Shown one piece after another: positions 742-20,440 of a DNA stretch of 22,727 nt. The notes beneath the pieces were generated by a model that ran no database searches, was not told where the DNA came from, and worked only from the letters and a program-made list of their open reading frames with translations. Source of the DNA: a virus. The stretch covers positions 1 through 22,727 of IMG/VR virus record IMGVR_UViG_3300032284_002533. The stretch is one strand, 5' to 3'. Numbering within the stretch: the first letter of the stretch is position 1; each line of letters opens with the position of its first letter. The position numbers and the translations under genes were made by a program.

Positions 742-1154
742 TGGCTACCATCTACGCAAAATTATTGGTTCTTGACAGTAGTGGAAATGATACATATGTA
801 GGTAATAGCAGTAACAGTCTCAGTGCCTGGGGAGCTCAGCTAGAGTTCGAACAGAACTACGAGGCTGCTCGTCAGAATTTCTATAATTTTAGATACATTC
901 GTACCACAGGGGCTAGTGCCAGCTTCATAGGAACCCGGCTCGGTCTGGACAATACAGCCGATGCTACCCCCATATCAGACACAATTACCCTGCTCAGAGG
1001 CATCCGCCTGGGCACCTATAACGATGGCAGTGTCAAGGATGCGACCGATATAAATATAGTATACAATCAGGGATTACTGCGCATGACTAGTTATCTGAGT
1101 TTTGACTATATCGCAGAAGACTATGTTGGTGAATCAAGAGCAATAACTTATTAA
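741..1154 (+). CDS. Small virion-associated protein, function unknown
   Basis: 137 residues. The start ATG shares one base with the stop of the upstream fibre gene (TAATG), so translation is probably coupled and the two proteins are likely made together. No signal peptide, membrane segment or catalytic motif is visible. The stretch SLSAWGAQLEFEQ (residues about 28-40) resembles the (W)GAQLE motif at the end of carbohydrate-binding-type beta-sandwich domains in phage fibres, so this may be a small fibre-associated or capping protein. The rest is Asn/Thr/Asp-rich with predicted beta character. A candidate late promoter for the next gene lies inside its 3' part. A structural role is inferred from context only. 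Confidence 0.6.
   Translation: MATIYAKLLVLDSSGNDTYVGNSSNSLSAWGAQLEFEQNYEAARQNFYNFRYIRTTGASASFIGTRLGLDNTADATPISDTITLLRGIRLGTYNDGSVKDATDINIVYNQGLLRMTSYLSFDYIAEDYVGESRAITY
1049..1056 (+). promoter_or_regulatory. Candidate late promoter TATAAATA (inside upstream gene)
   Basis: Exact match to the T4 late-promoter element TATAAATA, which in T4 is read by the phage sigma factor gp55 with the clamp gp45 and needs no -35 box. It lies within the 3' part of the preceding small gene, 111 bases before the ATG at 1168, which carries a strong Shine-Dalgarno. Because the site is in coding sequence it could be chance; the parallel with the other five sites in the window raises its credibility. Confidence 0.5.
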
Positions 1155-1167
1155 AGGAGCATTATAA

Positions 1168-1707
1168 ATGTTTAACACCGAAGAAAATTTAAAACTTCGC
1201 GGTAGTGTTGACATCAAGGTCGTAGGATCTGATGGCATCGTCAAGGAAAACCGTTTTATCCCGAACCTCGTAGTTCAAAGCGGTAAAAACTACATTGCAA
1301 CCCGCATGATTGGTACAGCAACCTCAGTTACAGCTGTTTATACCACAGCTAGTGCAACCAGCTGCATGACCTACATGGGCCTGGGAACTTCAACTACAAC
1401 AGCTTCAGTAAATGATACTACTCTGAATACCGAAGTAACAGTTGCTGGTGACATTGCAGCTTATAACCGAGCACCAATTGCATCAACCACACAAAGCACT
1501 GGTGTTGTAACCTATGTAGCAGTATTTGGTCCTAATAATCCACAAAGAACCAATACATCAAATACAACAGCGATTACCGAAGCAAGTATCTTCAATAGCT
1601 CAACAGCAGCTCTAGCAGGTACTATGTTATGCCGCACTACATTCAATGCGGTAAACAAAGGTAACGACGACACATTACAAATTACCTGGACTATTACAGT
1701 CAGTTAA
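1168..1707 (+). CDS. Virion structural protein, tail/fibre type, unknown
   Basis: 179 residues, started at an ATG preceded by a strong AAAGGAG ribosome-binding site. The N-terminus is charged (LKLRGSVDIKVVGSDGIVKE), followed by NLVVQSGKNYIATRM and a Thr/Ser/Ala-rich section. MGLGTSTTTASVNDTTLNTEV (residues about 68-88, given here only as its pattern: a G-G-T run, then D-T-x-L and E) is a motif seen in many phage tail-tip and fibre proteins, where a loop with a GTGT-like run precedes an acidic strand. There are no membrane segments. The C-terminus is beta-like (LQITWTITVS). It is probably a tail-tip or baseplate-associated protein; the exact role is unknown. A TATAAATA element lies 111 bases upstream. 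Confidence 0.65.
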   Translation: MFNTEENLKLRGSVDIKVVGSDGIVKENRFIPNLVVQSGKNYIATRMIGTATSVTAVYTTASATSCMTYMGLGTSTTTASVNDTTLNTEVTVAGDIAAYNRAPIASTTQSTGVVTYVAVFGPNNPQRTNTSNTTAITEASIFNSSTAALAGTMLCRTTFNAVNKGNDDTLQITWTITVS

Positions 1708-1726
1708 TTAAACTAAGGTTAAAGAC

Positions 1727-2341
1727 ATGGCAGCCCTAACGCTCAGACGGCTTAAAGGGTTGCCCTTAACCAATAATGAAGTTGATGACAACTTCAGTAA
1801 CCTTGATAACAACAAGGTTCAGTTAGGTGGCGATCTAGGCGGTAGTACTAGCACTCCGGTAGTCACAAGACTGCAGGGGTTTGCGGTATCTAACGCAACT
1901 CCAGTTAGTGGTAATACCCTGATCTGGACAGGATCAGCCTGGGCTCCTCAGTACGTAACAGTTACTGGCATAACCCAGCTGGTAAACACCGTAGTCAATG
2001 ACATTAGTCATCAGTTTAACAACCTGCAACAGGTGTTTACACTTAGAACCAATTATACAGCTTTGACTGGCAGTGAATTCACTGACAGCAAAGACCTAGA
2101 TGTGATATTAGACGGCCGATACCTGGCAGCTGACATCACAGAATTTAACAGATACTGGCCCTGGCAGAGTGAATTTGATGCGGGCCGTAGTAATAGTTTT
2201 CGCATGCGTGGAGCAAAAATTCTGTTCTACAAGCAACCGCAGACGAAAACCACAGTTTTTATAAAGATAAATACTAAGTCAGCATCAAAACAGTACAGGA
2301 AATACCCCCTGGCACCTATTAATATAGCTTTTGGAGATTAA
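1727..2341 (+). CDS. Virion structural protein with N-terminal docking-type module
   Basis: 204 residues; ATG with a modest upstream AAGG. The N-terminus (LRRLKGLPLTNNEVDDNFSN) is the short module found at the start of many fibre and baseplate-associated proteins of T4-like marine phages: a basic/hydrophobic start, LT, then an acidic stretch ending in DDNF. It is commonly followed by a GGDLGGS-type linker, present here at residues about 33-42. The centre includes a possible helical or coiled segment (ITQLVNTVVNDISHQFNNLQQ) that could trimerise. The C-terminus is basic (KSASKQYRKYPLAP). The gene sits three bases upstream of the 997-residue structural gene, so the two are probably cotranscribed and may assemble together. 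Function is inferred. Confidence 0.65.
   Translation: MAALTLRRLKGLPLTNNEVDDNFSNLDNNKVQLGGDLGGSTSTPVVTRLQGFAVSNATPVSGNTLIWTGSAWAPQYVTVTGITQLVNTVVNDISHQFNNLQQVFTLRTNYTALTGSEFTDSKDLDVILDGRYLAADITEFNRYWPWQSEFDAGRSNSFRMRGAKILFYKQPQTKTTVFIKINTKSASKQYRKYPLAPINIAFGD
2266..2273 (+). promoter_or_regulatory. Possible late promoter variant GATAAATA
   Basis: GATAAATA differs at one base from the T4 late consensus. It lies in the 3' end of the preceding gene, 70 bases before the ATG of the 997-residue structural protein. Support comes mainly from the same 8-mer occurring before the genes at 7872 and 20441. It could be chance, since it is within coding sequence. Confidence 0.35.
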
Positions 2342-2343
2342 AA

Positions 2344-5337
2344 ATGGCTAAACGCATTATACCTGATTATTATAGTTTTAACCCTGCAACGAAAACTATA
2401 ACAATCCCTAACCGTATCATTCAACGTCAGAACATGCTTCTGATTACGAATGAACAAACCAATACGGTTATTTTCAATTTCAGTGATCCTGATCTATACA
2501 TTACCAGTTACACAGCTCCTTTTAGTAGCTCAGCAACCAGTATTGGTACTCAGTTCACACTTAACTACAATACTGCTAGCATGGGCACCAGCGATACATT
2601 GGCTATCCTGGTAGACGAAAACGCAGAGTTCTTTACACCAAGTGAAGTTTTAACTGACGACACCAACAAGTTAAGAACATCAAGCCCACAAGCTTTAATG
2701 GATACGGACTTTGAGTTCGGCCTACAACCAATCAAATGGGAAGCCTATACTCAACAACATAACTATCCAAGCTATTACCTCAAAGGCGGTGGTAATGCTC
2801 TTAATGTTGTTAGACTTTATGCAGATAATAGCAGTCCTAGATCTACAGCTACCATTATTACAGCTACTACAGCTCCACACGGTCTAGTTACCGGTGACCT
2901 GGTTCAGGTCATATTCTCAGGTGACTATAGACTGAACGGTGTATTCCCAGTTCTATCAGTTCCATCATCTGGTGCTATTACATTCCAGGCTAAAGGTCAG
3001 GTTTCAGGCGATCAATTATCTTCATACACCATCATCAACGGTGGTACAGTATTTGATAGCAACAATCAGACTTCTAAGATTGCACTTAGCTCCAATGCTG
3101 CCATGTACTACCTGGACACAGTAACAGCAGGTGCAGGTACTGGTCAGACCATCATTGTTAACACAGCTTACAAACATGGTTTAATGCCAGGCGCTCCAAT
3201 CCTGGTCAACAGCTCATTGACCAACAGTGCCAACGGTGTTTGGTTTGTCTATGACGTTCCAAGCCCAACACAATTCCGCTACCAAACTCCAGGTTTTGCG
3301 TCTGGTTCTTCTAGCGCAATCATTGATACAGCCAACGTGGTTGTGACTCTGAGACCTGAAGCAACCTATACGCATAGAAGTACCGACGGTGGCGTCAACG
3401 TGTCAATCCAAAATATCTACACAGGTATTCAGGCCATCCGTCAGACTCGCAGATACTTCCGATACCAATCAGGTAAAGGTATCCAGATGTCCACAGGTAC
3501 TAAGTTTGCACCTAGCTACGAAATTCAAGGTGTCAGCTCCGTTGGTACTACTGCAGTCATCACAACTTCACAGGCAGCTAACCTGTTATCAGGTTCAGTA
3601 ATTCGTGTTGAAGGTGTGCGTGTAAATGCTGGTACAACCAACTATTACAACGGTGACTTCATTGTACAGGACGTGTTCTATTCTAGCAACATTGTTACCT
3701 ATACCATGAGTGGTACACCAACTGACAAGTTACCTGGTTCAGATCCTACTCCATACATGACAGTTAAAAACTGGGTAGGTTCATCCATGCGCGTGGGTAT
3801 GTTTGATGGCCAAAACGGTTTCTTCTTCGAATACGACGGTCAAAACTGGTATGCAGTTCGCCGCTCCAGTGTTCGTGAAGTATTTGGTTTAGTCAACGTA
3901 ACCAACGGTTCAGGTATCATCACTGGTTCAACCATTGGTACAGTTGCTCCAACCCGATTCAGCAAACAGCTAATCCCTGGTCAATATGTGGTTATCCGTG
4001 GTCAATCATACCAAATTCAGGCTATTGATTCAGACTCACAGATCCAAGTTACTCCAGCTTATCGTGGTCCTACCCTAAACAACACTCGCATGAACATGAC
4101 TCAGGATCTAAGAGTTCCACAAAGTGCCTGGAACCTGGATCGATGCGACGGTACTGGCCCAACTGGTTTCAATTTAGATGTAACCAAGATGCAAATGATC
4201 TACATGGACTATACCTGGTACGGCGCTGGCTTTATTCGCTGGGGCTTCAGAGGTGTAGACGGCAATGTGTTCTATTGCCATAAGATGGCAAACAGTAACG
4301 TTAACAACTTAGCCTACATGAGATCTGGTAACCTTCCATCTCGATACGAGGGTGCAAACGTTGGTCCAGTTACTCAGTTAGCAGGTAACAACACAACCTC
4401 AGTTGGTGGTACGTTCCTGGCTGCTCAGACCGATACATTGCTGGTTCAGGATGCTATTCGTTTCCCTAGCTCAGGTCAGGTTGTTCTTAGTCAATTAACC
4501 AGCACCGAAGTTTTAGCCTACACAGGTAAAACATCAGCAACTATTGGTGGTGTTCTTTACCATGCATTGACTGGTTTGACTCGTCGCCAATTAGGTGGTA
4601 CTACAAGTAACATGACATTCTTCCCAACCGAATACTTTGGCGGTACAGCGGGCTTTAGCTCAGTTTGTGCAGTACAGTATTTAAGCTGTAATGCTGCTCC
4701 AACATTTATGCACTGGGGTTCAAGCGTTATCATGGACGGTGGTTTCCAAGACGACAACAGCATCCAGTTTGCTTATGTTAAACAAACTTCAGCAATTACC
4801 CTGCAAGCAGGTACAAGTATTGCTGCAATTAGTATCCGTTTATCTCCAAGCGTTGATAACGGTACTGTTGGTGCCTATGGTGTCAAAGACGTTGTAAACC
4901 GCATGCAATTAAGAACACGAAGCCTGGGTATTGCAACCAATACTTCCATACAGGTTCTGGGTATCTTGAACGGAACATTCCCAGCTAATACCAGCACATC
5001 ACCAAGACCAGTTCTTCCAGGTGATTGGGCAACTACTTCCATTGTTGCCAACATTGGTGTAGCCAGCCTGGCTCAGATCATTGACCACACAGGTAACGGT
5101 ACATTGTTAACCGGTGGTGAACAGATCTTTGGTTTTGTTACAGGTAACACTGCAGACAACTATGATATTAGCGTTGTTCGTGATCTGGGTACAAGTATTG
5201 TTTCAGGTGACGGTAGTAACAAGACTCCTGGCTTCCCAGTAGGTCCAGATGTCCTTACCATCGTGCTGAAGAATGCTAACCCAAGCGTGGCAATTGCTTC
5301 AAACGTTCGATTAAGCTGGTCAGAAGCTCAAGCTTAA
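2344..5337 (+). CDS. Large virion structural protein (997 aa), baseplate/fibre associated
   Basis: A 997-residue protein resembling the large conserved structural protein of marine T4-like phages. Residues about 100-135 hold a signature beginning LTDDTNKLRTSSPQALMDTD and ending LQPIKWE. Two or three beta-domain repeats follow (APHGLVTGDLVQV ... NGVFPV; YKHGLMPGAPILV ... NGVWFV; a weaker one near residue 400). Residues about 486-509 contain FDGQNGFFFEYDGQNWYAVR. Residues about 544-575 hold PGQYVVIRGQ through AYRG. Residues about 595-637 contain WNLDRCDGTGPTGFN and MDYTWYGAGFIRWGFRG. A later domain has an LTGLTRRQLGG motif. No enzyme motif or membrane segment is seen. Codon use resembles gp23 more than the neck genes (few ATA codons), hinting at high expression. 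I favour a baseplate or fibre-attachment role, not proven here. The name and partner are uncertain. Confidence 0.75.
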   Translation: MAKRIIPDYYSFNPATKTITIPNRIIQRQNMLLITNEQTNTVIFNFSDPDLYITSYTAPFSSSATSIGTQFTLNYNTASMGTSDTLAILVDENAEFFTPSEVLTDDTNKLRTSSPQALMDTDFEFGLQPIKWEAYTQQHNYPSYYLKGGGNALNVVRLYADNSSPRSTATIITATTAPHGLVTGDLVQVIFSGDYRLNGVFPVLSVPSSGAITFQAKGQVSGDQLSSYTIINGGTVFDSNNQTSKIALSSNAAMYYLDTVTAGAGTGQTIIVNTAYKHGLMPGAPILVNSSLTNSANGVWFVYDVPSPTQFRYQTPGFASGSSSAIIDTANVVVTLRPEATYTHRSTDGGVNVSIQNIYTGIQAIRQTRRYFRYQSGKGIQMSTGTKFAPSYEIQGVSSVGTTAVITTSQAANLLSGSVIRVEGVRVNAGTTNYYNGDFIVQDVFYSSNIVTYTMSGTPTDKLPGSDPTPYMTVKNWVGSSMRVGMFDGQNGFFFEYDGQNWYAVRRSSVREVFGLVNVTNGSGIITGSTIGTVAPTRFSKQLIPGQYVVIRGQSYQIQAIDSDSQIQVTPAYRGPTLNNTRMNMTQDLRVPQSAWNLDRCDGTGPTGFNLDVTKMQMIYMDYTWYGAGFIRWGFRGVDGNVFYCHKMANSNVNNLAYMRSGNLPSRYEGANVGPVTQLAGNNTTSVGGTFLAAQTDTLLVQDAIRFPSSGQVVLSQLTSTEVLAYTGKTSATIGGVLYHALTGLTRRQLGGTTSNMTFFPTEYFGGTAGFSSVCAVQYLSCNAAPTFMHWGSSVIMDGGFQDDNSIQFAYVKQTSAITLQAGTSIAAISIRLSPSVDNGTVGAYGVKDVVNRMQLRTRSLGIATNTSIQVLGILNGTFPANTSTSPRPVLPGDWATTSIVANIGVASLAQIIDHTGNGTLLTGGEQIFGFVTGNTADNYDISVVRDLGTSIVSGDGSNKTPGFPVGPDVLTIVLKNANPSVAIASNVRLSWSEAQA

Positions 5338-5354
5338 TTATTTAAGGAGACGCT

Positions 5355-6335: not shown

Positions 6336-6337
6336 TC

Positions 6338-7114
6338 ATGGCCACCAATTTTTATTTTCAAAGTGGCATTCCTGGTGGTCGCACCAGCGAACAAAGACTC
6401 ATAGAAAGCCTAATCATTGAAGCCATTAAGGTCTATGGCTTTGATGTATTCTACATGCCCAGAACTCAGGTCAACAAGGACAACATATTCCTGGATGACG
6501 CTCTGGCTACCTTTGACAATGCCATACCCATAGAATGCTATCTGGAAAATGTCAATGGCTATGGTGGCGATGGCGAGCTCATGAGTAAGTTTGGCATTGA
6601 GTTCCGAGACACTGCTACCTTTGTCATGGTGCGCAGTCGCTGGGAAGACACCGTGGCAGCTGGTCGCAGCAATGTGCTGACCCTACCCAACAGACCGGCC
6701 GAGGGTGATTTATTGTACATGCCCCTGACCAAGAGCTATTTTGAAATTAAAAAAGTCGAAGCCAAGGATCCATTCTTCCAGCTAGGCAAATTATACGTGT
6801 ACAAACTGCAGTGTGAACTCTGGCAATACAACAGCGAAGAGCTCAACACCAATGTCAGTGAAATTGACAGCATTGAACAGCTCAATAGTCTGGGCATCAA
6901 CAACTTTGAATTCCTACTAGAAGACGGTGGTAGATTGCGCACCGAAACCAATGACTATCTGGACGAAGACAAAGGCTTCCTGCTCTGGGAAGGTTTTGAT
7001 TTGCCCTCGCAGGACAACCTGGCAGACAATGTTAACTTTAGAAACGAAGCTCTGGACATACTGGACTTTAGTGAAACCAATCCTTTTGGCGAGGTGGTAA
7101 GAAATAATGTTTGA
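6338..7114 (+). CDS. gp14: Neck protein gp14
   Basis: 258 residues, close to the 256 of T4 gp14. gp14 joins gp13 in the neck complex that stabilises packaged DNA and connects to the tail terminator. Recognisable parts: the N-terminus FYFQSGIPGGRTSEQRLIE, then IEAIKVYGFDVFYMPRT followed by DNIFLDD (residues about 27-56), a central FGIEFRDTATFVMVRSRW, and the C-terminal conserved run NEALDILDFSETNPFGEV. It starts two bases after the gp13 stop and its 3' end overlaps the gp15 start by 8 bases, so gp13, gp14 and gp15 form a coupled translational unit, matching the gene order 13-14-15 of T4. Confidence 0.9.
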   Translation: MATNFYFQSGIPGGRTSEQRLIESLIIEAIKVYGFDVFYMPRTQVNKDNIFLDDALATFDNAIPIECYLENVNGYGGDGELMSKFGIEFRDTATFVMVRSRWEDTVAAGRSNVLTLPNRPAEGDLLYMPLTKSYFEIKKVEAKDPFFQLGKLYVYKLQCELWQYNSEELNTNVSEIDSIEQLNSLGINNFEFLLEDGGRLRTETNDYLDEDKGFLLWEGFDLPSQDNLADNVNFRNEALDILDFSETNPFGEVVRNNV

Positions 7115-7856
7115 AGATAAAGTCTTTTACCACGGCATAACACGCAAAGCCATAGTAAGCTTTGGAGTAATGTTCAACAACATCAACATACGCAGACGCG
7201 ATGCTGCTGGCGAAATTAGTCAGGTAATTCGTGTACCACTGAGCTATGGCCCTAAGAATAAAATGCTTAGCCGCATTCAGCGACTGCCTGTGGCTGAGGA
7301 AGCCAAGACAGAAATTACAGTACCTCGCATGAGCTTTGAAGTAGTTAATTTTGAATATGATCCAGCCCGAAAAATTAACCTGCAGAATCAACTAAAGACT
7401 GTAATTAGTCAGACTCAGGCCAAGCGCACCTATGGCCCAGTTCCCTACAACATAACCATGAATCTCTATGCCTATGTTAAAAATCAGGATGATGGACTAC
7501 AGATATTCGAACAGATTGTTCCAGCCTTTAATCCGGACTTTAATGTTACTGTAAACTATGTGCCTGAAATGGGCATCAAACACGACCTGCCCATAATCAT
7601 CAACAATGTAACCTATGATGATAACTACGAAGGTGATACTGCTGCTCAGCGCATGATCATCTGGACCTATACCTTTACACTTAAAGTATACTACTATGGC
7701 CCAACCGAGACACAAGAGATCATACGCGAAGCCATTGCCAATGTATTTAATGATCCAAACCTGAGCAACCAGATAAATAAATACAGTGTAAGCACTGATC
7801 CGACGACAGCAACACCAACGGATACGTACAAATTCCTTGAAACTTTTGAAGAATAA
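7107..7856 (+). CDS. gp15: Tail sheath stabiliser / tail terminator gp15
   Basis: 249 residues (T4 gp15 has 272). gp15 forms the hexameric ring at the head-proximal tail end; it caps the tube and sheath and docks the tail to the neck. The N-terminus is the family signature (FEDKVFYHGITRKAIVSFGV then FNNINIRRRD), followed by IRVPLSYGPKNKML and the central PYNITMNLYAYVKNQDDGLQ with FNPDFNVTVNYVPEMG. The ATG overlaps the gp14 stop by 8 bases, which fixes the start well. Its 3' end contains a GATAAATA element that may promote the following gene. Order and length both support the assignment. Confidence 0.9.
   Translation: MFEDKVFYHGITRKAIVSFGVMFNNINIRRRDAAGEISQVIRVPLSYGPKNKMLSRIQRLPVAEEAKTEITVPRMSFEVVNFEYDPARKINLQNQLKTVISQTQAKRTYGPVPYNITMNLYAYVKNQDDGLQIFEQIVPAFNPDFNVTVNYVPEMGIKHDLPIIINNVTYDDNYEGDTAAQRMIIWTYTFTLKVYYYGPTETQEIIREAIANVFNDPNLSNQINKYSVSTDPTTATPTDTYKFLETFEE
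7772..7779 (+). promoter_or_regulatory. Possible late promoter variant GATAAATA
   Basis: GATAAATA, one base from the T4 late consensus, inside the gp15 3' end and 92 bases before the ATG of the 613-residue fibre-like gene. A second overlapping AATAAATA follows 4 bases on. Support is the recurrence of this 8-mer before other virion genes in the window; activity is unproven. Confidence 0.35.
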
Positions 7857-7871
7857 TAACCGGGATAGACC

Positions 7872-9713
7872 ATGACATACCAGCCCATAAACCTAGGAAC
7901 ACCTAACAACAACGACGGTGATTCGTTGTTCATTGGTGGACAAAAAATCAATGCTAACTTTGCTGACCTTTATACTAACCTGGCCGGTTCTAGTAGCAAT
8001 GCTTTAAAAATTAACATACCTAATCAGGCCTCGGCGGCTGGTAGTGTATTAGCCTGGAATACAGTTTCTCAAACATTTATTCCCAGCTCTAGTAACAGTC
8101 TTAGATCAGCCGGCAGCATAAACACCAATAGCCTGTTTATTACCAATAGCGCAGGCGCTTCTGGCAACAGTGATGCTGATTTAACCGGCGATGTAAATGC
8201 CCTAATTAACCGACTAGATGGCAGTAACATGTTTTTCTTGCGAAGCCGCAACAATACCAGCGTAGGTACTGTGCGTGGCACCCTGGACATCAACCTGGGC
8301 AACCAGAATGTAACATCTTTGAGCGTGTACACTACGGGTACAGTTATTCGTGGACTAAATGGTCTGACCATTTACAAGGCTCTGGGCGAAGACAATGCAA
8401 CCTATACAAAACTTCTAGACTATACATCTAGTAACACAGGTGTTACACTTTATCAAACTCCAAGCCTGGACATTGCCAGCCTTAGCTCAGGTGTAAGAAC
8501 AGGTAATGATAGCAGTAATGCACTGGCTCATACCGGATATGTTCAGGTCAATCTACAGAAATATGCTCCCAGTTCCGTGGCCATTGTTGGTCGCCGAGGC
8601 ATCATCAGCACCAATGCCAATCAGAACCTAACTGGTGATAGCTATTTTAACATAGACGGCATCTACCATCCTAAACACATGGAAGGGCTGATCTATAACT
8701 ATAACACCATTAGCAATAAAATTACCCTGGTTACAGGCGCAGCTGCTCATTGGAGCTACAGCACCTCTGGCGTAGCTGGACTGTTACCAACCAGTGCCAT
8801 AGCCATTGTAGCAAGTTACAATCCAATTATTCGAACATTTATTACTGGTTGGGTTCCTCAATACAAAACCGATGGTTCAACACCAGCAATCATTGACGGA
8901 TCTATTAGTCCTAATACCTGGTACTACCTATACTACGTGGGCTGTTTGGTCTATACCAGCAGCTATGGCGTTGGCGTAGGCAATGAATTCTGGCCAGGAT
9001 CCAGCAACGTGGTCATTAGCTCAAACCGCGATATTGCATCCGTGGATGCTCAGTTAGCCGCAGCGGGCTTTGGCGGTGTCTGGCAAACAGTACGACGCAT
9101 TGGTCCAGTAAAATCCAACAACACCGGCACAGGCATTGTTCCATTCAACGTCAAACGTATTGACCATGGCGCATTTGAATATTATTGGGGACTACAACCC
9201 AATGCTTCTGGAGCAGCGCTGGGTGCTGATACTTCTTATACCATTAGTGCTAACCTGTCTCAGGTGCCTATCTATGGTTCAAGCGATTCAGTAGTACTAA
9301 GCAACTATGCTAGCTCAGTCATGACAGTGATACCGCCCATACCTGGTATTACTGCGTTCATTACGGTTAGACATCAGCCTGCAGCTGGTGGTAGCCTACC
9401 ACAGCTGTATCTGTATGGCGATAGCTGGACAGTAAACAGCTCAATTAGTGCCCTTTATCCACCGTTTGAAATCCTAAGATCTGTGGCTACATCGGTCACG
9501 AACCTGCACAACATACAGGTGCCCATGATTCCTGACGGCTGTTACATACCAGACGGAACCTATAATGGCGCAGGTATTCTAAGTGTAACAACCAGTACAG
9601 GTCTTAAACTGCGATATGCCTTCCAGAATCTGCCCAACGAAGGTCTTGGTCAGGCTCGTGTAACTTCTACATTATTACAATTCACCGTGACTGGCTTTAG
9701 GTATGCAAGATAA
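7872..9713 (+). CDS. Fibre-like virion protein (613 aa) between gp15 and terminase
   Basis: 613 residues; ATG after a GGGA ribosome-binding site. The N-terminus (INLGTPNNNDGDSLFIGGQK then INANFADLY) is a module recurrent at the start of structural proteins in marine T4-like phages and related in style to the N-terminus of the 204-residue protein at 1727. A Ser/Asn/Gly/Thr-rich body follows, with many short beta strands. No coiled coil, membrane segment or enzyme motif is obvious. The C-terminal ~200 residues (from about YYWGLQPNASG to VTGFRYAR) look like a compact beta domain and could bind a receptor or glycan. It replaces the direct gp15-gp16 adjacency of T4 and ends overlapping terS by 11 bases. 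A neck or whisker-type fibre is possible from position, but a tail or head fibre is equally open. Confidence 0.65.
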   Translation: MTYQPINLGTPNNNDGDSLFIGGQKINANFADLYTNLAGSSSNALKINIPNQASAAGSVLAWNTVSQTFIPSSSNSLRSAGSINTNSLFITNSAGASGNSDADLTGDVNALINRLDGSNMFFLRSRNNTSVGTVRGTLDINLGNQNVTSLSVYTTGTVIRGLNGLTIYKALGEDNATYTKLLDYTSSNTGVTLYQTPSLDIASLSSGVRTGNDSSNALAHTGYVQVNLQKYAPSSVAIVGRRGIISTNANQNLTGDSYFNIDGIYHPKHMEGLIYNYNTISNKITLVTGAAAHWSYSTSGVAGLLPTSAIAIVASYNPIIRTFITGWVPQYKTDGSTPAIIDGSISPNTWYYLYYVGCLVYTSSYGVGVGNEFWPGSSNVVISSNRDIASVDAQLAAAGFGGVWQTVRRIGPVKSNNTGTGIVPFNVKRIDHGAFEYYWGLQPNASGAALGADTSYTISANLSQVPIYGSSDSVVLSNYASSVMTVIPPIPGITAFITVRHQPAAGGSLPQLYLYGDSWTVNSSISALYPPFEILRSVATSVTNLHNIQVPMIPDGCYIPDGTYNGAGILSVTTSTGLKLRYAFQNLPNEGLGQARVTSTLLQFTVTGFRYAR

Positions 9714-11830: not shown

Positions 11831-11841
11831 TTCTAGAATTT

Positions 11842-11849
11842 TATAAATA
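11842..11849 (+). promoter_or_regulatory. Late promoter TATAAATA for tail sheath operon
   Basis: Exact T4 late-promoter element in an 80-base intergenic gap between terL and the sheath gene, 61 bases before the gp18 ATG. The gap is otherwise AT-rich and includes a TTCTAGAA palindrome at 11831-11838. In T4, gene 18 is likewise strongly late-expressed. The Shine-Dalgarno AAGGAG (11899-11904) fits the downstream start. This is one of the two best supported late promoters in the window because it is intergenic. Confidence 0.85.
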
Positions 11850-11910
11850 TACGGATAAACAAGAAGATTCAATTCTGCAATAGTGAATGAATTAAAATAA
11901 GGAGAATAAA

Positions 11911-13836
11911 ATGGCTTTCCAAGTTTCGCCTAATGTATTAGTCCAGGAACGCGACGTTAGCCTGTTCGTACCACAAGTTTCAACCACCGCAGGAGCATTT
12001 GTAGGTAGTTTTAACTGGGGTCCAGCCGAGCAGTTCGTAACGATTGATAGCGAAAAAACCCTGTATAACACTTTTGGTAAACCAGATGACAATAGCTACA
12101 AGTACTGGTTTGTCGCAGCTAACTTTTTAGCATATGGCAATAATCTACAAGTAAATCGAATTGCTGATGCAGCTAGCCGCAACGCTACAGCTACTGGTGT
12201 ATCATCAGTTTTAGTAAAAAATCTAAGCAACTACAATGGCGATATTGGTTATAGTGCGCCAACCCTAACTGGCACAGAATTTGTAGCCAAGTATCCAGGT
12301 ACTTTGGGCAATAGCCTAAAGGTTTCAATCTGTGATTACAACTCATATACCTTTGTTGCTACACTGAGCAGTGTTACAACTACTGGCGCAACCTGCGCAG
12401 CTCTTAGCCGTCTAGTTCCAACAGGCAGTTGGGTAGAAGTTGTTTTAAATAGTACAACCTATAGATTCCAAACTACAGCTGATGCAGCTCTAAGTGCTAC
12501 CACGCTGGTGTTTAATAATACAACTGGAGCTAGTGCAGCTACCAGCACCAGTGCTAACGTTCTCTGGGAATTCTGGAACCTGGTTGCTAGCCGTCCAGGC
12601 AATACTAGATTTGCTCTTAGTGTAAACAATCTTAGTTCTACTGCAACCATCTATGATGAAGTTCATGTAGTTGTAGTTGATTATTTAGGTAAATTTACAG
12701 GTACTGCTGGTACAGTGCTGGAAAAATGGGAAGGCCTAAGCAAAGCAACCGATGGCTTAACCACAGACGGATTGACCGGTTACTATAAAAACTACCTGAA
12801 TACCAACAGCCAATACATCTGGTGGGGTAGTCATACAGCATTAACTACTAGCCCAGCTGGCAACACCATTAGCTGGGGTAACACAGTTACAGGTGCAACC
12901 ACTGGCTTTACACTTTTAAGTCAGGTTGACACTCGCATCTTTACACAGGGTGTAGATGTTACACCTACCGATGGTTTATTACAAACCGAGTATGCTAAAT
13001 TGGCCAATGCTGAACAATATGACGTAAGTCTTATTCCTGTAGTTGGTATTGCAGCCGACAATGCAACAGGTAGATTTGTCAGCGATAACGTAACCGATGT
13101 ACGCAGAGACTGCATAGTATTTGTTAGCCCAACAGCTCAAAGCATCAATACAGCAACTGCAGTAGTAAATGATCGAACCACAAACTTTAACAAAGACACC
13201 AGCTATGCTGTCATGGACTCAGGTTGGAAATACCAATATGACCGTTACAATGACGTATATCGTTGGTTACCACTGTGCGGCGACACTGCTGGACTTTGCG
13301 TAAGAACCGACACTGTTGCTGATCCATGGTATAGCCCAGGTGGTTATAACCGCGGTCAGATTAAAAATCTGGTTAAATTAAACTGGACTCCTAACAAAAC
13401 CGATCGCGATAATCTCTATAGATATCAGATCAATCCAATTGTTACACAACCTGGATTAGGTACAGTATTATTTGGCGACAAAACAGTTACACAAAAACCA
13501 AGTGCATTTGATCGCATCAATGTACGACGCTTGTTCATTGTCTTAGAAAAGGCCATTTCTACAGCATCTAAATTCCAGTTATTTGAATTCAATGATGCAT
13601 TTACCCGTAGCCAATTCGTAAGTCTGGTAGAGCCATTCTTGCGCGATGTACAGGGACGCAGAGGTATTATTGATTTCCGTGTAGTCTGCGATGACACCAA
13701 TAATACAGCTCAGGTCATTGACTCTAACCAATTCGTAGCTGACATCTATATCAAACCAGCTAAGAGCATCAATTACATTACACTGAACTTTGTTGCAACA
13801 CCAACTGGTGTAGCATTTAACGAAGTTGGTGCTTAA
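11911..13836 (+). CDS. gp18: Tail sheath protein gp18
   Basis: 641 residues (T4 gp18 659). The sheath is the contractile outer tube that drives the inner tube through the host envelope. The N-terminus (FQVSPNVLVQERDVSLFVPQ, FVGSFNWGPAEQ, LYNTFGKPDD) is a classical gp18 signature. The middle (residues about 100-400) is Ser/Thr/Ala-rich and corresponds to the variable protruding domains. The C-terminal core (RRLFIVLEKAISTASKFQLF, FNDAFTRSQFVSLVEPFLRD, then GIIDFRVVCDD) is the conserved sheath-forming part. A strong AAGGAG ribosome-binding site and an intergenic TATAAATA point to heavy late expression. The gene for gp19 starts 11 bases after its stop. Confidence 0.95.
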   Translation: MAFQVSPNVLVQERDVSLFVPQVSTTAGAFVGSFNWGPAEQFVTIDSEKTLYNTFGKPDDNSYKYWFVAANFLAYGNNLQVNRIADAASRNATATGVSSVLVKNLSNYNGDIGYSAPTLTGTEFVAKYPGTLGNSLKVSICDYNSYTFVATLSSVTTTGATCAALSRLVPTGSWVEVVLNSTTYRFQTTADAALSATTLVFNNTTGASAATSTSANVLWEFWNLVASRPGNTRFALSVNNLSSTATIYDEVHVVVVDYLGKFTGTAGTVLEKWEGLSKATDGLTTDGLTGYYKNYLNTNSQYIWWGSHTALTTSPAGNTISWGNTVTGATTGFTLLSQVDTRIFTQGVDVTPTDGLLQTEYAKLANAEQYDVSLIPVVGIAADNATGRFVSDNVTDVRRDCIVFVSPTAQSINTATAVVNDRTTNFNKDTSYAVMDSGWKYQYDRYNDVYRWLPLCGDTAGLCVRTDTVADPWYSPGGYNRGQIKNLVKLNWTPNKTDRDNLYRYQINPIVTQPGLGTVLFGDKTVTQKPSAFDRINVRRLFIVLEKAISTASKFQLFEFNDAFTRSQFVSLVEPFLRDVQGRRGIIDFRVVCDDTNNTAQVIDSNQFVADIYIKPAKSINYITLNFVATPTGVAFNEVGA

Positions 13837-13847
13837 GGAGATAGAAA

Positions 13848-14456: not shown

Positions 14457-14485
14457 TAGTATTTTATAATTTTTAGAGAATTATC

Positions 14486-16099
14486 ATGGCTGAAATAAAT
14501 TTATTTGGATACACCTTTACTAAAAAGAAACCTGAGCCCAAAGGGGCTCAGAGTTTCGTTGTCCCTCAGGACGATGACGGTGCAACCAGCATAAATGCCA
14601 CGGGGTTTTATGGAACCTACCTGGACATTGATGCAGCAGCAAAGAGTGAAAACGATTTAATAAACCGATACAGAGATATTGCTCTATATCCAGACTGCGA
14701 CCAGGCCATAGAGGACATAGTGTCCGAAGCTGTAGCAGCCGAAGATGACGAACCTGTTGTTAGAATTAACCTGGACAAAACCGAGTTAAGTGCCAACATC
14801 AAAAAAGCCATTGAAGAAGAATTTGACAATGTATTAACATTGTTGGACTTTAATAGCAAGAGTCATGACATATTTAAACGCTGGTACATAGACGGCAGAG
14901 TTTATTACCACAAGATTGTTGATGTAACCAAGGCCAAGCAAGGCATACAGGAACTGCGCTACATAGATCCTAGAAAGATCAAAAAGGTTCGCAAGGTTCA
15001 GAAAGAAAAAGATGCAGCTACAGGCGTAGAGTTCATTAAAAAGATCGAAGAGTTCTTTGTATTCAATGACAAAGGATTAATTGCGCAGGTGCCAAATACT
15101 GCCAGTGCTACCCAGGGCATTAAAATTTCCGTGGACAGCATAGCACTTTGCACCAGTGGACTAATTGACATGGATGCCAACATGGTGTTAGGTCACCTAC
15201 ACAAGGCCATCAAGGTAGTCAATCAGTTGCGCATGGTAGAGGATGCCCTGGTCATTTATAGAATGACTCGAGCACCTGAAAGACGTATATTTTACATAGA
15301 CGTAGGTAACTTGCCCAAGGCCAAGGCCGAGCAATATGTCAAGTCCATCATGGACAAGTATCGCAACAAGATTACCTATGATGCCAGCACCGGCGAAGTG
15401 CGCGACGAAAAACGCACACTGAGCATGCTGGAAGATTTTTGGATGCCACGCCGTGAAGGTGGTAAAGGCACAGAGATTACCACGCTAGAAGGTGGTGCTA
15501 ACCTGGGTGAAATTAACGATGTTAATTACTTCCAGAACAAACTGTATCAGAGTCTTAATGTACCACTGAGTAGATTAAAACCTGACACAGGTATGAATTT
15601 TGGTCGTCAGGCAGAAATTACGCGCGACGAACTTAAATTTAGTAAATTTGTAAGCAGACTCAGAAAGAAATTTGGTGAGCTGTTTGACGATTTACTCAAG
15701 ACACAGTTAATATTAAAAGGTGTCATGAGTGATCAGGACTGGGAAGTCATCAAAGAAAGCATCTATTATGACTTTACCAAAGATGCCTACATGGCCGAAG
15801 CCAAAGAAGCTGAAATACTTCGAAACCGTGTAGATTTACTAAATCAGGTCATACCCTATGTTGGCACATATTTTAGTCGTGAATTTGTATACGAAAAAAT
15901 CCTTCGTTTAGAAGACGAAGATGTTGATGAAATGAAGAAACAGATCGATGACGATCCAGAACTTCAACAACAGATGCAACAACAGGCTCAGATGCAAACG
16001 CAACAGCCTGGTCAACAACAGACACAGCAACCTGGGACACCGCAACCCTATAATCCCAGCAACCCTGTGGTAGAAACATTTAAAATTAGTGGAGCTTAA
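14486..16099 (+). CDS. gp20: Portal protein gp20
   Basis: 537 residues (T4 gp20 524). It forms the dodecameric head portal through which DNA enters and leaves, initiates prohead assembly and docks terminase. Signatures: LINRYRDIALYPDCDQAIED then IVSEAV (residues about 39-64), MVEDALVIYRMTRAPERRIF then YIDVGNLPKAKAEQYV (about 250-285), LEDFWMPRREGGKGTEITTL (about 315-335) and NKLYQSLNVPLSRLKP (about 350-368), the most conserved portal regions. The C-terminal ~50 residues are unusually glutamine- and proline-rich (QQMQQQAQMQTQQ...). The upstream ribosome-binding site is weak (AGAGA) and sits in an AT-rich hairpin-prone leader. The next gene starts two bases after the stop. Confidence 0.95.
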   Translation: MAEINLFGYTFTKKKPEPKGAQSFVVPQDDDGATSINATGFYGTYLDIDAAAKSENDLINRYRDIALYPDCDQAIEDIVSEAVAAEDDEPVVRINLDKTELSANIKKAIEEEFDNVLTLLDFNSKSHDIFKRWYIDGRVYYHKIVDVTKAKQGIQELRYIDPRKIKKVRKVQKEKDAATGVEFIKKIEEFFVFNDKGLIAQVPNTASATQGIKISVDSIALCTSGLIDMDANMVLGHLHKAIKVVNQLRMVEDALVIYRMTRAPERRIFYIDVGNLPKAKAEQYVKSIMDKYRNKITYDASTGEVRDEKRTLSMLEDFWMPRREGGKGTEITTLEGGANLGEINDVNYFQNKLYQSLNVPLSRLKPDTGMNFGRQAEITRDELKFSKFVSRLRKKFGELFDDLLKTQLILKGVMSDQDWEVIKESIYYDFTKDAYMAEAKEAEILRNRVDLLNQVIPYVGTYFSREFVYEKILRLEDEDVDEMKKQIDDDPELQQQMQQQAQMQTQQPGQQQTQQPGTPQPYNPSNPVVETFKISGA

Positions 16100-16101
16100 T
16101 C

Positions 16102-16275
16102 ATGAGTGAACAAGTAAGAGACATGTTAGATAATATCATAGACGGAAACCAAGCAGCTGCTCAGGAAAACTTTGCGGATATACTGAGTCAAAAAGTAACA
16201 GATGCCTTGGATGCTCGTAAAGTAGAAATCGCACGATCCCTAGGAGCTAATAATGGCGAAGTTCAAGCAAGTTAG
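16102..16275 (+). CDS. Small prohead-core-like protein (57 aa)
   Basis: 57 residues. The ATG begins two bases after the gp20 stop; the frame runs MSEQVRDMLDNIIDGN..., ends at TAG 16273-16275 and overlaps the next gene by 23 bases. It is helical and acidic at the N-terminus (VRDMLDNIIDGNQAAAQENF) with an amphipathic DILSQKVTDALDARKVEIAR segment; this last motif (LDARK-E-A) recurs in small internal/prohead core proteins encoded after the portal in T4-like phages. In T4, genes 67 and 68 occupy this place and encode internal core proteins needed for head length and shape. I infer the same role. It could be a homologue of either; the sequence alone does not decide. Confidence 0.65.
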   Translation: MSEQVRDMLDNIIDGNQAAAQENFADILSQKVTDALDARKVEIARSLGANNGEVQAS

Positions 16276-16603
16276 AGAAGCAACAAAATACAATCCTTAT
16301 GCCATTGGCATGAGTGTGGTTAAAAAGAAAATGGGTCTGGGACCTGAACATGCACATGGTTTGCCTAAAGCAGCCATTGTCAAGGCTCATGATATTGCTA
16401 AAAAGATCAAGGCCAACGAAGAGTTTGATTCAGATCTGGAAGAAGCCATTAGCCTGCCAGATAATCCAGATTATAGCAAATACGACAAGGCTACATTTTT
16501 AAGAAACAAACCCATGGAGACACCTAAACAGGCTCCAAAATGGGTAGGCAAGAATACCGATAAACCAGCTTACAAACGCAAAGCTGAAGCCGAGGGCAAA
16601 TAA
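16253..16603 (+). CDS. Small basic protein in head module, candidate core protein
   Basis: 116 residues; starts 23 bases inside the previous gene, so translation is coupled. It is highly Lys-rich (MAKFKQVREATKYNPYAIGM, HGLPKAAIVKAHDIAKKIKA) with a C-terminal RKAEAEGK tail; no membrane segment or catalytic motif. LPKAAIVKAHDIAKKI looks like a helical motif repeatedly found in small T4-like phage head proteins. By position it matches gp68 or gp67 (prohead core) in T4. Being basic it may bind DNA or the acidic scaffold. Assignment is positional, so function is tentative. Confidence 0.6.
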   Translation: MAKFKQVREATKYNPYAIGMSVVKKKMGLGPEHAHGLPKAAIVKAHDIAKKIKANEEFDSDLEEAISLPDNPDYSKYDKATFLRNKPMETPKQAPKWVGKNTDKPAYKRKAEAEGK

Positions 16604-16605
16604 CC

Positions 16606-17001
16606 ATGGCCATTACATCCAGTGTTTTAACCAGTCGCCGCAAGACGCATACCATTAGTTTGATTGCCAGTGCAGCTGGCGATAGTATTACCATACCTTT
16701 AACCAGTACTTTAATTAGCGATCAGACCAGCAGCTCTAGCATCAGCCTGGCAGTTAATATTTCTGCTTTCTATGCCAATGTTGGCTCAGGTAGCGTAACA
16801 GTTGCTCGCAGTGGTAACACCATAATTTTTGCCTCTGGCTCAGCAACCTATCCAACTGCAGCTGAAAAATTGCCGGCATTTGCACAAAACAATACAACTG
16901 CTATCTCAGTTACTTTTACTACACCAGGACAGGTGGTCCTAGAACTACACAAGGTTGCAGGTACTGTTGATCCTAATTATAACGTAGGAGACTACCATTA
17001 A
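16606..17001 (+). CDS. Beta-rich protein between core genes and protease, unknown
   Basis: 131 residues, starting two bases after the previous stop and ending in TAATG shared with the gp21 start. Composition is Ser/Thr/Ala/Val-rich with no charged scaffold-like stretches and no membrane segment: strands such as HTISLIASAAGDSITIPLTS, SISLAVNISAFYANV, SVTVARSGNTIIFAS and AISVTFTTPGQVVLELHKV suggest an Ig-like or jelly-roll beta sandwich. Nothing comparable occupies this position in T4. A head-decoration or capsid-stabilising protein is one possibility; an alternative is an accessory neck/tail protein. Only its reality as a gene and its operon position are well supported. Confidence 0.6.
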   Translation: MAITSSVLTSRRKTHTISLIASAAGDSITIPLTSTLISDQTSSSSISLAVNISAFYANVGSGSVTVARSGNTIIFASGSATYPTAAEKLPAFAQNNTTAISVTFTTPGQVVLELHKVAGTVDPNYNVGDYH

Positions 17002-17660
17002 TGAAACTCATTACTGAACACGTAGAAGAAATTCAATACATCAAAGAAGCCAAGGAAGACGGCGGTAAAGCCTACTTTATCGAGGGTCCTTTTCTTCAAA
17101 CCGAAATTGCTAATCGTAACGGCCGTGTATATCGCAAAAACATCATGGAAAAAGAAGTACAACGTTACATCAAAGAATATGTAAACACTAAACGAGCTTT
17201 TGGTGAACTAGGCCATCCCGATGGTCCAAGCATCAATCTTGATCGTGTTAGTCATATGATTACCAGCCTCAAGGCAGAGGGTAATAATTACATCGGTCGT
17301 GCCAAGATCATGACTGAAACGCCCATGGGTCGCATTGTTAAAAATCTTATCGATGAAGGTGCTCAGCTGGGTGTAAGTTCTCGTGGAATGGGTAGCTTGA
17401 AATTGAATAAAGAAGGTGTTAATGAAGTTCAGGACGATTTTTATCTGGCTACAGCTGCAGACATTGTAGCTGATCCAAGTGCTCCAGACGCGTTTGTTCG
17501 CGGTATCATGGAAGGCAAAGAATGGATGATGGTAGAAGGTCGCTTTGTTGAACGTCACTACGACTTTGTTCGTGGTCAGATTCAAAACGCCAGAAGCAGA
17601 GATCTTGACGCTGTAAAGATACAGGTATTTGAAGATTTTATCAGACAAATATCAAAATAG
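17001..17660 (+). CDS. gp21: Prohead maturation protease gp21
   Basis: 219 residues (T4 gp21 212). A serine protease that degrades the scaffold and trims capsid proteins during head maturation. Catalytic features: FGELGHPDGPSINLDRV with His72 and GAQLGVSSRGMGSLK with Ser126/Ser127, the pattern expected of the herpesvirus-assemblin-like phage protease family; N-terminal YFIEGPFLQTEIANRNGRVY is also typical. The start codon overlaps the previous stop by one base. Cleavage in T4 follows (I/L)-x-E, and such motifs appear in the N-termini of gp22 and gp23 here. It lies next to its substrates gp22 and gp23, separated from them by a late promoter. Confidence 0.93.
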   Translation: MKLITEHVEEIQYIKEAKEDGGKAYFIEGPFLQTEIANRNGRVYRKNIMEKEVQRYIKEYVNTKRAFGELGHPDGPSINLDRVSHMITSLKAEGNNYIGRAKIMTETPMGRIVKNLIDEGAQLGVSSRGMGSLKLNKEGVNEVQDDFYLATAADIVADPSAPDAFVRGIMEGKEWMMVEGRFVERHYDFVRGQIQNARSRDLDAVKIQVFEDFIRQISK

Positions 17661-17667
17661 CATTTAA

Positions 17668-17675
17668 TATAAATA
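17668..17675 (+). promoter_or_regulatory. Late promoter TATAAATA for scaffold-capsid operon
   Basis: Exact T4 late element in the 43-base gap between gp21 and gp22, 28 bases before the gp22 ATG, giving a predicted leader of about 20 bases that carries AGGAG (17691-17695). It is embedded in a TAATAT-AA-ATATTA inverted repeat (17665-17678). As an intergenic site with good geometry it is one of the two best supported late promoters. It should supply most gp22 and gp23 mRNA; no further promoter was seen before gp23. Confidence 0.85.
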
Positions 17676-17703
17676 TTAGAAACCCGTTTTAGGAGACCTT
17701 AAA

Positions 17704-19002
17704 ATGTCATTAGAAACAAAAATTCGCCAATTGCTTGAAAGCAAAAAAGCAGGTGCGAAATCAATTAACGAAGCTACCGAAGCTGGTATGAATGCTCCGC
17801 ATGAGCCACAACACCATCAAGGCAGCAGCAAAAAAGCTGAGTATGATACCATGAATCCAAGCATGGGCATGGCTCGTCGTAATCTTGACAAATATCAAGA
17901 AGATGAAAAAGAAGACGACACACTTAAAAAAGGACCAGCTGAAGCTCAGGCTAAACAAGGCGATTCAGAAGTTGCTAATTACAAGGATGTCGATCCTTTC
18001 AACACTGAAGTTGATTTAAATTCAGATGGTTCTATCAAGAAAGGCATTGGCGAGCCACAACATCACCAAGGTGATAGCCGTCATGCTAAGTATTCAGAAA
18101 TGGATCCATTCCAACCTCATGCAATGAGTTCTGATAATCCAGAAGCATTTGTAAGAGAAGCCAAAGAAGGTGAAGATTTATCTGCTGAAAACGGTGAAGA
18201 CGAAAAATCAGAAAAATCTGAGAAGAAAGCTAAAAAAGATAAAGAAGTTAAAGAATCATTACGCAAAGACATTGAAAATTTATTTGCTGCTGATACATCT
18301 TTATCAGAAGAATTTAAAACACAAGCAGGCAGCATTTTTGAAGCTGCAGTTATTGCTCGTGTAAATCACGAAGTTGAAACTATTGCTGAAGAATTAGCAG
18401 AGCAAAATGTACGTGATTTTGAAGAACTCAAAGAAGGTCTTGTAGAGAAGATTGATTCATATCTAAATTATGTTACAGAACAATGGATGAAAGACAATGA
18501 ACTCGAAGTGGAATTAGGTCTACGCACAGAAGTTGCTGAAGACTTTATGCTTGGTTTAAAGAATCTTTTCCAAGAGCATTACTTTGAAGTACCAAACGAC
18601 AAGGTTGACGTATTAGAAGATATGGGAGCCAAAGTCGATGAAGTTACAGCTCGTCTTGATGAAACTATTCAAGTTAACGTTGCTCTCAAAGAAGAGTTAG
18701 ACGGTATTAAACGCGAAAGAATCATTGAACAAGCATGCAAAGACCTTACAGCAACAGACGCTGAAAAAATGTCCAAGCTGTTAGAAGGTGTAGAGTTTGA
18801 CAACGAAAAACTTTTTGAAGAAAAAGTATTACTTGTTAAAGAAAATTACTTCCCTGGCAACACTCCTAATAGTCCAGAAAAATTATTAGAAGAAGATGTA
18901 CAGGTAGCTGGTGCAGCTGATAAAAAGGCTACAGTTCCAGCACATATGAAACCATATGTAGAAGCACTTTCAAGAACAGCAAGAGTTAAACATTTTAATT
19001 AA
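17704..19002 (+). CDS. gp22: Scaffolding (prohead core) protein gp22, enlarged
   Basis: 432 residues, much longer than T4 gp22 (269). It forms the transient internal core around which gp23 polymerises and is later degraded by gp21. The family part starts near residue 190 (ENLFAADTSLSEEFKTQAGS, then IFEAAVIARVNHEVETIAEE) and is largely helical and acidic, ending in a basic C-terminus (LSRTARVKHFN). The first ~185 residues are an additional hydrophilic segment with a three-copy repeat and a highly charged linker (EDEKSEKSEKKAKKDKE, about 165-185). A gp21-type site LLE occurs at residue 12. A strong ribosome-binding site and TATAAATA precede it. Its codon use is AT-ending and differs from the neck genes. 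Confidence 0.88.
   Translation: MSLETKIRQLLESKKAGAKSINEATEAGMNAPHEPQHHQGSSKKAEYDTMNPSMGMARRNLDKYQEDEKEDDTLKKGPAEAQAKQGDSEVANYKDVDPFNTEVDLNSDGSIKKGIGEPQHHQGDSRHAKYSEMDPFQPHAMSSDNPEAFVREAKEGEDLSAENGEDEKSEKSEKKAKKDKEVKESLRKDIENLFAADTSLSEEFKTQAGSIFEAAVIARVNHEVETIAEELAEQNVRDFEELKEGLVEKIDSYLNYVTEQWMKDNELEVELGLRTEVAEDFMLGLKNLFQEHYFEVPNDKVDVLEDMGAKVDEVTARLDETIQVNVALKEELDGIKRERIIEQACKDLTATDAEKMSKLLEGVEFDNEKLFEEKVLLVKENYFPGNTPNSPEKLLEEDVQVAGAADKKATVPAHMKPYVEALSRTARVKHFN
17803..17859 (+). repeat. Scaffold repeat copy 1
   Basis: Encodes EPQHHQGSSKKAEYDTMNP (gp22 residues 34-52), first of three copies of a pattern Q-x-x-QG-(D/S)S-x-x-A-x-Y-x-x-(M/V)-(D/N)P. Copy 3 is nearly identical in its first six residues. 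Confidence 0.85.
17941..17997 (+). repeat. Scaffold repeat copy 2
   Basis: Encodes EAQAKQGDSEVANYKDVDP (gp22 residues 80-98). It is the most diverged copy, keeping QGDS, A-x-Y and DP; the following residue is F, as in copy 3. Confidence 0.8.
18052..18108 (+). repeat. Scaffold repeat copy 3
   Basis: Encodes EPQHHQGDSRHAKYSEMDP (gp22 residues 117-135), preceded by KKGIG much as copy 2 is preceded by KKGP, so the repeat unit probably includes these upstream residues. Confidence 0.85.
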
Positions 19003-19033
19003 TTTTAGTAACAAATCCTTCAGGAGAACTTAA

Positions 19034-20341
19034 ATGTCACAAATGTTACAAGAAAAATGGGATGCAGTGGTATCACACCCTGAGCTCCCAGAAATCAAAG
19101 ACAGTTACAAAAAATATGTAACGTCAGTTCTGTTAGAGAACCAAGAAAAAGCTCTAATGGAAGAAAAACAAGCACTTTGGGAAACAGTTCCAGCTAACTC
19201 AATGGGTGGCGGTTTCTCAGGTCAAGTTAACGGTACAAACGCTAATGCTAACTTAGCTGGTTATGATCCAATCTTAATCAGTCTGGTTCGCCGTGCAATG
19301 CCTAACTTAATGGCATACGACGTTTGCGGTGTGCAACCAATGACTGGCCCAACAGGTTTGATTTTCGCAATGAAATCAAAATACTCAACACAAGGTGGTA
19401 CAGAAGCTTTATTCAATGAAGCAGACACAGCATTTGGTGGTAGTTCAATTACTGCTCAAGCTGGTACTAACCCTGCGCTATTCCCACCAACAAGTGGCTA
19501 TTACACAACATCATATGCAACTGGTGTAGGTATTGCTACTGGTGACGCTGAAAAATTAGGCGACACATATGCATTTGGTGAAATGGCATTCAGCATCGAA
19601 AAAACATCTGTAACTGCTAAAACTCGTGGCTTGAAAGCTCAATACACAGTTGAATTAGCACAAGACTTAAAAGCAGTTCATGGTCTTGACGCAGAAGGCG
19701 AATTAGCTAATATCTTATCACAAGAAATTTTATTCGAAATTAACCGTGAAGTTATTAGAACTATTTACGTAGCTGCACAACCAGGTGCTTCAACAGGTGC
19801 TACAACAACATTTGGTACTTTTGACTTAGACACAGACTCAAACGGTCGTTGGTCAGTTGAAAGATTCAAAGGTTTGCTGTTCCAAATCGAACGTGATGCA
19901 AACAACATTGCACAAACAACACGTAGAGGTAAAGGTAATGTTCTTATCGTTTCTTCTGATGTTGCTTCTGCTCTGTCAATGGCTGGTATCTTAGATTACA
20001 CTCCAGCTTTAAGCACATCATTAAACGTAGATGACACAGGCAATACATTTGCTGGTGTATTAAACGGTAAGATCAAAGTTTATGTTGATCCATATTCAGC
20101 TAACTTGAACGTAGCTAACCAATTCTATGTAGTTGGTTACAAAGGTACAAGTCCATATGACGCTGGTATGTTCTATTGCCCATACGTTCCATTACAAATG
20201 GTTCGTGCAGTAGATCCTGCAACATTCCAACCTAAGATCGGCTTCAAGACACGTTATGGTTTAGTTACTAACCCATTTACTAGCTTGACACAAGGTCAAA
20301 ATACATACTACAGACGCGTTAACGTTGTTAACTTAATGTAA
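19034..20341 (+). CDS. gp23: Major capsid protein gp23
   Basis: 435 residues (T4 gp23 521; the shorter length is common in marine relatives). It builds the icosahedral head shell with an HK97-type fold. Signatures: YDPILISLVRRAMPNLMAYD then VCGVQPMTGPTGLIFAMKSK (about 76-118), KTRGLKAQYTVELAQDLKAV, GRWSVERFKGLLFQIERDA, and the C-terminal GTSPYDAGMFYCPYVPLQMV with FQPKIGFKTRYGLVTNPF. The N-terminal ~50 residues are a scaffold-like helical extension with LxE motifs (for example LWE at 48-50) that suit gp21 cleavage. None of its 18 isoleucine codons is ATA, unlike uvsW or the portal, as expected for very high expression. A ribosome-binding site AGGAG precedes it and an intrinsic terminator follows. 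Confidence 0.97.
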   Translation: MSQMLQEKWDAVVSHPELPEIKDSYKKYVTSVLLENQEKALMEEKQALWETVPANSMGGGFSGQVNGTNANANLAGYDPILISLVRRAMPNLMAYDVCGVQPMTGPTGLIFAMKSKYSTQGGTEALFNEADTAFGGSSITAQAGTNPALFPPTSGYYTTSYATGVGIATGDAEKLGDTYAFGEMAFSIEKTSVTAKTRGLKAQYTVELAQDLKAVHGLDAEGELANILSQEILFEINREVIRTIYVAAQPGASTGATTTFGTFDLDTDSNGRWSVERFKGLLFQIERDANNIAQTTRRGKGNVLIVSSDVASALSMAGILDYTPALSTSLNVDDTGNTFAGVLNGKIKVYVDPYSANLNVANQFYVVGYKGTSPYDAGMFYCPYVPLQMVRAVDPATFQPKIGFKTRYGLVTNPFTSLTQGQNTYYRRVNVVNLM

Positions 20342-20370
20342 TTGTATTAGGTTAGAGCTTAAAAAAGGAT

Positions 20371-20397
20371 AGGGAGATTTAGGTCTCCCTTTTCTTT
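20371..20397 (+). terminator. Intrinsic terminator after gp23
   Basis: AGGGAGA (20371-20377) pairs perfectly with TCTCCCT (20384-20390) across a 6-base loop and is followed by TTTCTTT. An A-run precedes it. It closes the gp22-gp23 transcription unit 30 bases after the gp23 stop and would separate abundant capsid mRNA from the next gene. Confidence 0.85.
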
Positions 20398-20401
20398 ACT
20401 T

Positions 20402-20409
20402 GATAAATA
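20402..20409 (+). promoter_or_regulatory. Probable late promoter variant GATAAATA
   Basis: GATAAATA, one base from the T4 late consensus, immediately after the gp23 terminator and 31 bases before the ATG at 20441. Initiation 6-8 bases downstream would begin beyond an in-frame ATG at 20411, making 20441 the real start. Its intergenic place after a terminator makes a promoter here plausible. Confidence 0.65.
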
Positions 20410-20440
20410 CATGGTAAGCCAAATAACCAAGGAGAACATC

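Follow-up and report, generated by a model that had tools for sequence, protein, structure and literature searches.

The gp55-gp33-gp45 late promoters of phage T4 consist of the octamer NATAAATA without a conserved -35 element, are followed by bases that lean to A/T, and are located before virion genes. The first base of the octamer is T at most of the 50 listed T4 late sites and A at nine (PMC2988020), and other T4-like phages have A or T at this position (PMC1524935). In the cyanophages S-PM2 and Syn9 and in other cyanomyoviruses, the motif is found upstream of T4-like late genes, and the late motif of S-PM2 has been published with an unconstrained first base N, NATAAATA (PMC2984593). A loose first base is thus already reported for T4-like phages. 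A further type is the late promoter of Aeh1, where CTAAATA is preceded by A or G (PMC1524935, PMC2988020).

Here we analysed a virus record of 22,727 bases (the window). It is a fragment that contains a T4-like virion module with genes for neck, tail-sheath stabiliser, terminase, sheath, tube, portal, protease, scaffold and capsid. These are succeeded by uvsY and then by uvsW, of which only the start is present, as the window ends inside it. The order of gp18-gp23, tail completion, uvsY and uvsW is shared with Pelagibacter phage HTVC008M, which has a late sigma gene just downstream, although its proteins have low identity to those of the window (48% for the tail sheath). All named phages that are nearest to the window are distant, with 43-52% tail sheath identity.

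The module contains six elements of the form KATAAATA, and we consider it very probable that these are T4-type late promoters, because of their placement, their conservation at orthologous sites, their sense bias and the occurrence of gp55, gp33 and gp45 in close relatives. As in T4, the octamer lies before virion genes, lacks a conserved -35 and is followed by A/T-leaning bases. The first position differs, as it is T or G in the window and mostly T in T4 (PMC2988020); furthermore, no element precedes the major capsid gene in the window or in its relative G001. The locus also shares the free first base with the cyanomyoviruses, whereas the clade of the window leans to T or G. An uncultured T4-like clade would thereby keep the T4 late switch. 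The switch itself is already known, and what is gained is a promoter map for a virion module that has been tested by conservation.

Positions of the six elements

An earlier note on this DNA had listed six KATAAATA octamers on the + strand and none on the - strand. Searching both strands of the window gave exactly this result, with octamers at 1049, 2266, 7772, 11842, 17668 and 20402 that precede the next gene start by 111, 70, 92, 61, 28 and 31 bases, respectively, as the note had also given. The core ATAAATA is exact at all sites and is preceded by T or G, or by A in an additional overlapping copy at 7776.

Three of the elements are embedded in the 3'-terminal part of the preceding coding sequence. 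The element at 1049..1056 (TATAAATA, + strand) is located within ORF 741-1154 before gene 1168, with a predicted +1 near 1062. The element at 2266..2273 (GATAAATA, + strand; predicted +1 near 2279) is located within ORF 1727-2341 before a virion structural protein gene (2344..5337, + strand; phrog_5838, E 2e-220). At 7772..7783 (+ strand), within a gp15-like ORF, two overlapping copies form GATAAATAAATA, that is GATAAATA at 7772 and AATAAATA at 7776, the latter of which corresponds in alignments to GATAAATA in most relatives. They precede a baseplate wedge or tail fibre connector-like gene (7872..9713, + strand; phrog_677, E 1e-10, N-terminal match), with a predicted +1 near 7785-7789. Thus, half of the elements lie inside the preceding gene, and deep enough within it that the intergenic-only filter of a published cyanophage survey (10-bp overlap; PMC3037559) would remove them.

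Only the other three elements are intergenic. The one at 11842..11849 (TATAAATA, + strand; predicted +1 near 11855) precedes the tail sheath gene gp18 (11911..13836, + strand), identified by its tblastn matches to genes annotated as tail sheath, and the one at 17668..17675 (TATAAATA, + strand; predicted +1 near 17681) precedes the head scaffolding gene gp22 (17704..19002, + strand; phrog_237, E 8e-68). The last one, at 20402..20409 (GATAAATA, + strand), directly follows the terminator of gp23 and precedes a gene for a 106-aa protein without known function (20441..20761, + strand). Its predicted +1 near 20415 excludes the ATG at 20411 on that transcript and thus supports 20441 as the start. Each element had been said to precede a virion gene. 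This is supported for 2344, 7872 and 17704 by PHROGs and for 11911 by tblastn, and it does not extend to 1168 and 20441, whose products are without known function. An unlisted ORF of 57 aa (MSEQVRDMLDNIIDGNQ..., 16102-16275) fills the apparent gap of 153 bases after the portal gene and overlaps gene 16253; it may perhaps encode a gp67/68-like prohead core protein.

By analogy to T4, (T/G)ATAAATA would be read at about -13 to -6 by the host RNA polymerase core together with the phage late sigma factor gp55, with gp33 as co-activator and gp45 as the sliding clamp loaded on DNA. Counted from the first base of the element, transcripts would start about 13 bases further downstream, a distance taken from T4, and transcription of the virion module would thereby be tied to phage DNA replication. 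The start points would lie before gene 1168, gene 2344, gene 7872, gp18, gp22 and gene 20441. The earlier note had divided the module into six late units. There are indeed six predicted starts, but the window contains a single convincing + strand terminator (20371-20390), and no clear terminator lies ahead of the other five elements. Most transcripts therefore probably overlap, and the module is better viewed as one with six start points than as six units.

The raw number of KATAAATA octamers in the window, six compared to 2.5 expected and reached in 3 of 100 shuffles, is a modest excess that is too small to settle anything. Their placement is more distinct. Positions up to 111 bases before a start make up 10.8% of the window and yet contain all six sites (0.108^6 = 1.6e-6). 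As the K at the first position is an after-the-fact choice, enrichment before starts, which had been proposed as a check, was retested with the core ATAAATA alone. Here, 7/7 copies lie in the 111-base upstream zones (P 1.8e-7; corrected, about 0.002), and no other of the 9,893 distinct 7-mers in the window is as concentrated before starts. When one mismatch is allowed in the octamer, 29 sites are found in the window compared to 33 expected, and the signal is absent.

Conservation in related phages and rival explanations

To assess conservation, we used 194 related loci (1.96 Mb) and compared three long relatives (G001, G002 and G009) side by side. Over the 1.96 Mb, ATAAATA occurs 772 times in sense and 72 times in antisense orientation, which is a tenfold asymmetry, and opposite-strand copies are rare in the upstream regions that were examined. 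ATAAATA is present in 90 of the 94 distinct upstream regions that are homologous to that of gp18 and in all 10 that are homologous to that of gp22, while it is almost never found upstream of gp14, gp15, gp16 and gp17 in the related loci. At the 7772 site, the core is present in 9 of 10 homologous regions of the locus set and also in G001 and G002. The equivalent sites of G009 (81690-81825, reverse-complement coordinates) and L167 lack ATAAATA and read GCTAAATA, which fits the Aeh1-type promoter; unlike in Aeh1, this variant occurs only at one site of two relatives, and ATAAATA is used elsewhere in the clade. The 1049 element is found within coding sequence in L165, L167 and G009.

All six sites of the window recur at orthologous places in the 65.6-kb relative G002. 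In the colinear stretch (39556-58311), they match the window one for one, with the sole extra site located before gp23. Across G002, 18 of 23 ATAAATA sites lie at most 120 bases before a start, compared to 4.7 on average for scrambles. These observations agree with the reading as T4 late promoters that the earlier note had put forward.

Three other explanations of the octamers were considered. The elements might have no regulatory role and reflect the composition of AT-rich spacers, and the raw count, which is only moderately above shuffles, would agree with this. However, 20 scrambles of ATAAATA with the same composition are not concentrated before starts, with a maximum of 3 copies there, and this explanation is refuted by the conservation and the strand bias; we give it almost no weight. 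Alternatively, only the intergenic elements at 11842, 17668 and 20402 might be promoters, whereas the three in-gene elements would be chance Ile-Asn (ATA AAT A) or Asp-Lys-Tyr (GAT AAA TA) codons. Indeed, the number of in-gene octamers is not enriched over synonymous codon shuffling (4 compared to 3.8), and Asp-Lys-Tyr is encoded at 7776 in most relatives, such that protein constraint could hold the octamer. As the number of in-gene octamers is uninformative in this respect, conservation was used as the test, and for these octamers only placement and conservation count as support. All in-gene copies lie no more than 130 nt from the end of their gene, where 1.3 would be expected. The equivalents of the 1049 and 2266 elements in G002 have a different surrounding sequence, and their distance to the start is similar or smaller: the first lies within unrelated sequence (90 bases before the start) and the second, TATAAATA, in a gap between genes. 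These two elements are thus not explained by constraint on the protein encoded upstream. Furthermore, L008 retains ATAAATA at 7772 via other codons (CGC ATA AAT AGA), where others use GAT AAA TA, and ATA is kept at 2266 in L005, L165, L167 and G009 even though it makes up only 24% of the Ile codons in the window. We therefore regard chance codons as unlikely.

The octamers could also be AT-rich -10 boxes read by sigma70 or a different sigma factor of the host, as KATAAATA resembles a -10 box and perfect sigma70 promoters are used elsewhere in the phage. Against this, no conserved -35 hexamer is present over 55 aligned sites, where the only columns that stand out are isolated ones at -37 and -28, and TTGACA at 16-18 bases before TATAAT is not found at any of the six elements. 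The real sigma70 promoters show the full 12/12 consensus and are located mostly elsewhere in the genomes of G002 and G009, and gp55 is conserved in the clade. Recognition by a host sigma factor is thus very unlikely, and we retain the interpretation as T4-type late promoters.

First base and the capsid gene

Among 55 near-start sites of the clade, which include orthologues and are thus not independent, the first base is T in 23, G in 21, A in 8 and C in 3 cases. Near starts in the three long relatives, G is as frequent as T, and its preference near compared to far from starts is only suggestive (Fisher P 0.056). At the gp18 site, T prevails across relatives (T 76, A 9, C 3, G 2). G is kept at the 2266 element in L005, L165, L167 and G009, and at the site after gp23 it is common to five phages, with GATAAATA following the hairpin in the window, L023, G001, G002 and G009 and TATAAATA in L085 and L042. 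The G at the first position is thus real, tolerated, as had been claimed before, and kept at particular genes; given the loose first base of other T4-like phages, it is not wholly new.

It is conceivable, though we find it doubtful, that GATAAATA and TATAAATA represent two lasting promoter classes in the clade, in which each gene would retain its first base over long divergence, with G after gp23 and before gene 2344 and T before gp18 and gp22. They would set different levels of late expression via gp55, with the capsid gene on the gp22 promoter.

The major capsid gene gp23 is a classic late gene, and no element precedes it in the window (18990-19033), where the stretch before it reads TTTTAATTAATTTTAG. 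An element before gp23 is present in L023, L084, L085, G002 and G009. A loss of the capsid-gene promoter that is unique to the window was considered and rejected, as G001 also lacks the element; the gp23 site thus varies within the clade. In the window, the capsid gene probably depends on the gp22 promoter.

Boundary of the late module and the late regulators

The intrinsic terminator after gp23 (20371..20397, + strand) consists of an 8-pair stem followed by a T-rich tail (-17.3 kcal/mol, z -3.2). Relatives have a hairpin with a T-rich tail at the same place, and the order of hairpin and element is the same in L023, G001, G002 and G009. Further downstream, a perfect sigma70 promoter (TTGACA-N17-TATAAT, 21438..21466, + strand) is located before uvsY. 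It is the sole 12/12 match in the window, where 0.02 would be expected, and it is retained in most close relatives. This promoter marks the start of an early-type unit and the end of the late module; the late module would stop here, and the host-type promoter would drive uvsY-uvsW early. Late and sigma70 sites lie mostly in separate parts of the genome in two of the three long relatives, G002 and G009. For instance, G002 has 18 late sites in a row, followed by sigma70 sites. The partition is not clear in G001 (P 0.36).

As the window stops before gp55, gp33 and gp45, we searched relatives for these late regulators, which had been suggested as a further check. All three were found. Of 18 related records, 11 encode gp55, among them those whose uvsW is 85-87% identical; gp33 was found in four (G002, G009, G011 and G015) and gp45 in five (G001, G009, G010, G011 and G016). 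The gp55 of G002 matches T4 gp55 of PDB 7d7c (E 3e-19), and the gp33 of G002 has no match among solved structures. In close relatives, gp55 is located just past uvsW, about 2 kb beyond the uvsW start. The gp55 gene itself is preceded by a perfect sigma70 promoter in G001 and G002, which would fit the logic of T4, where gp55 is made ahead of the late virion genes.

Two smaller observations concern the uvsY-uvsW region. Inside distal uvsW, TATAAATA occurs in all three long relatives (G001 15309, G002 60696 and G009 96470, reverse-complement coordinates), and the start of the next called gene follows after 238-241 bases; its equivalent would fall just beyond the end of the window. Furthermore, a conserved TATCTGAAT follows the -10 box of the uvsY promoter by about 5-6 bases in most close relatives, and it could be a start-site or operator signal.
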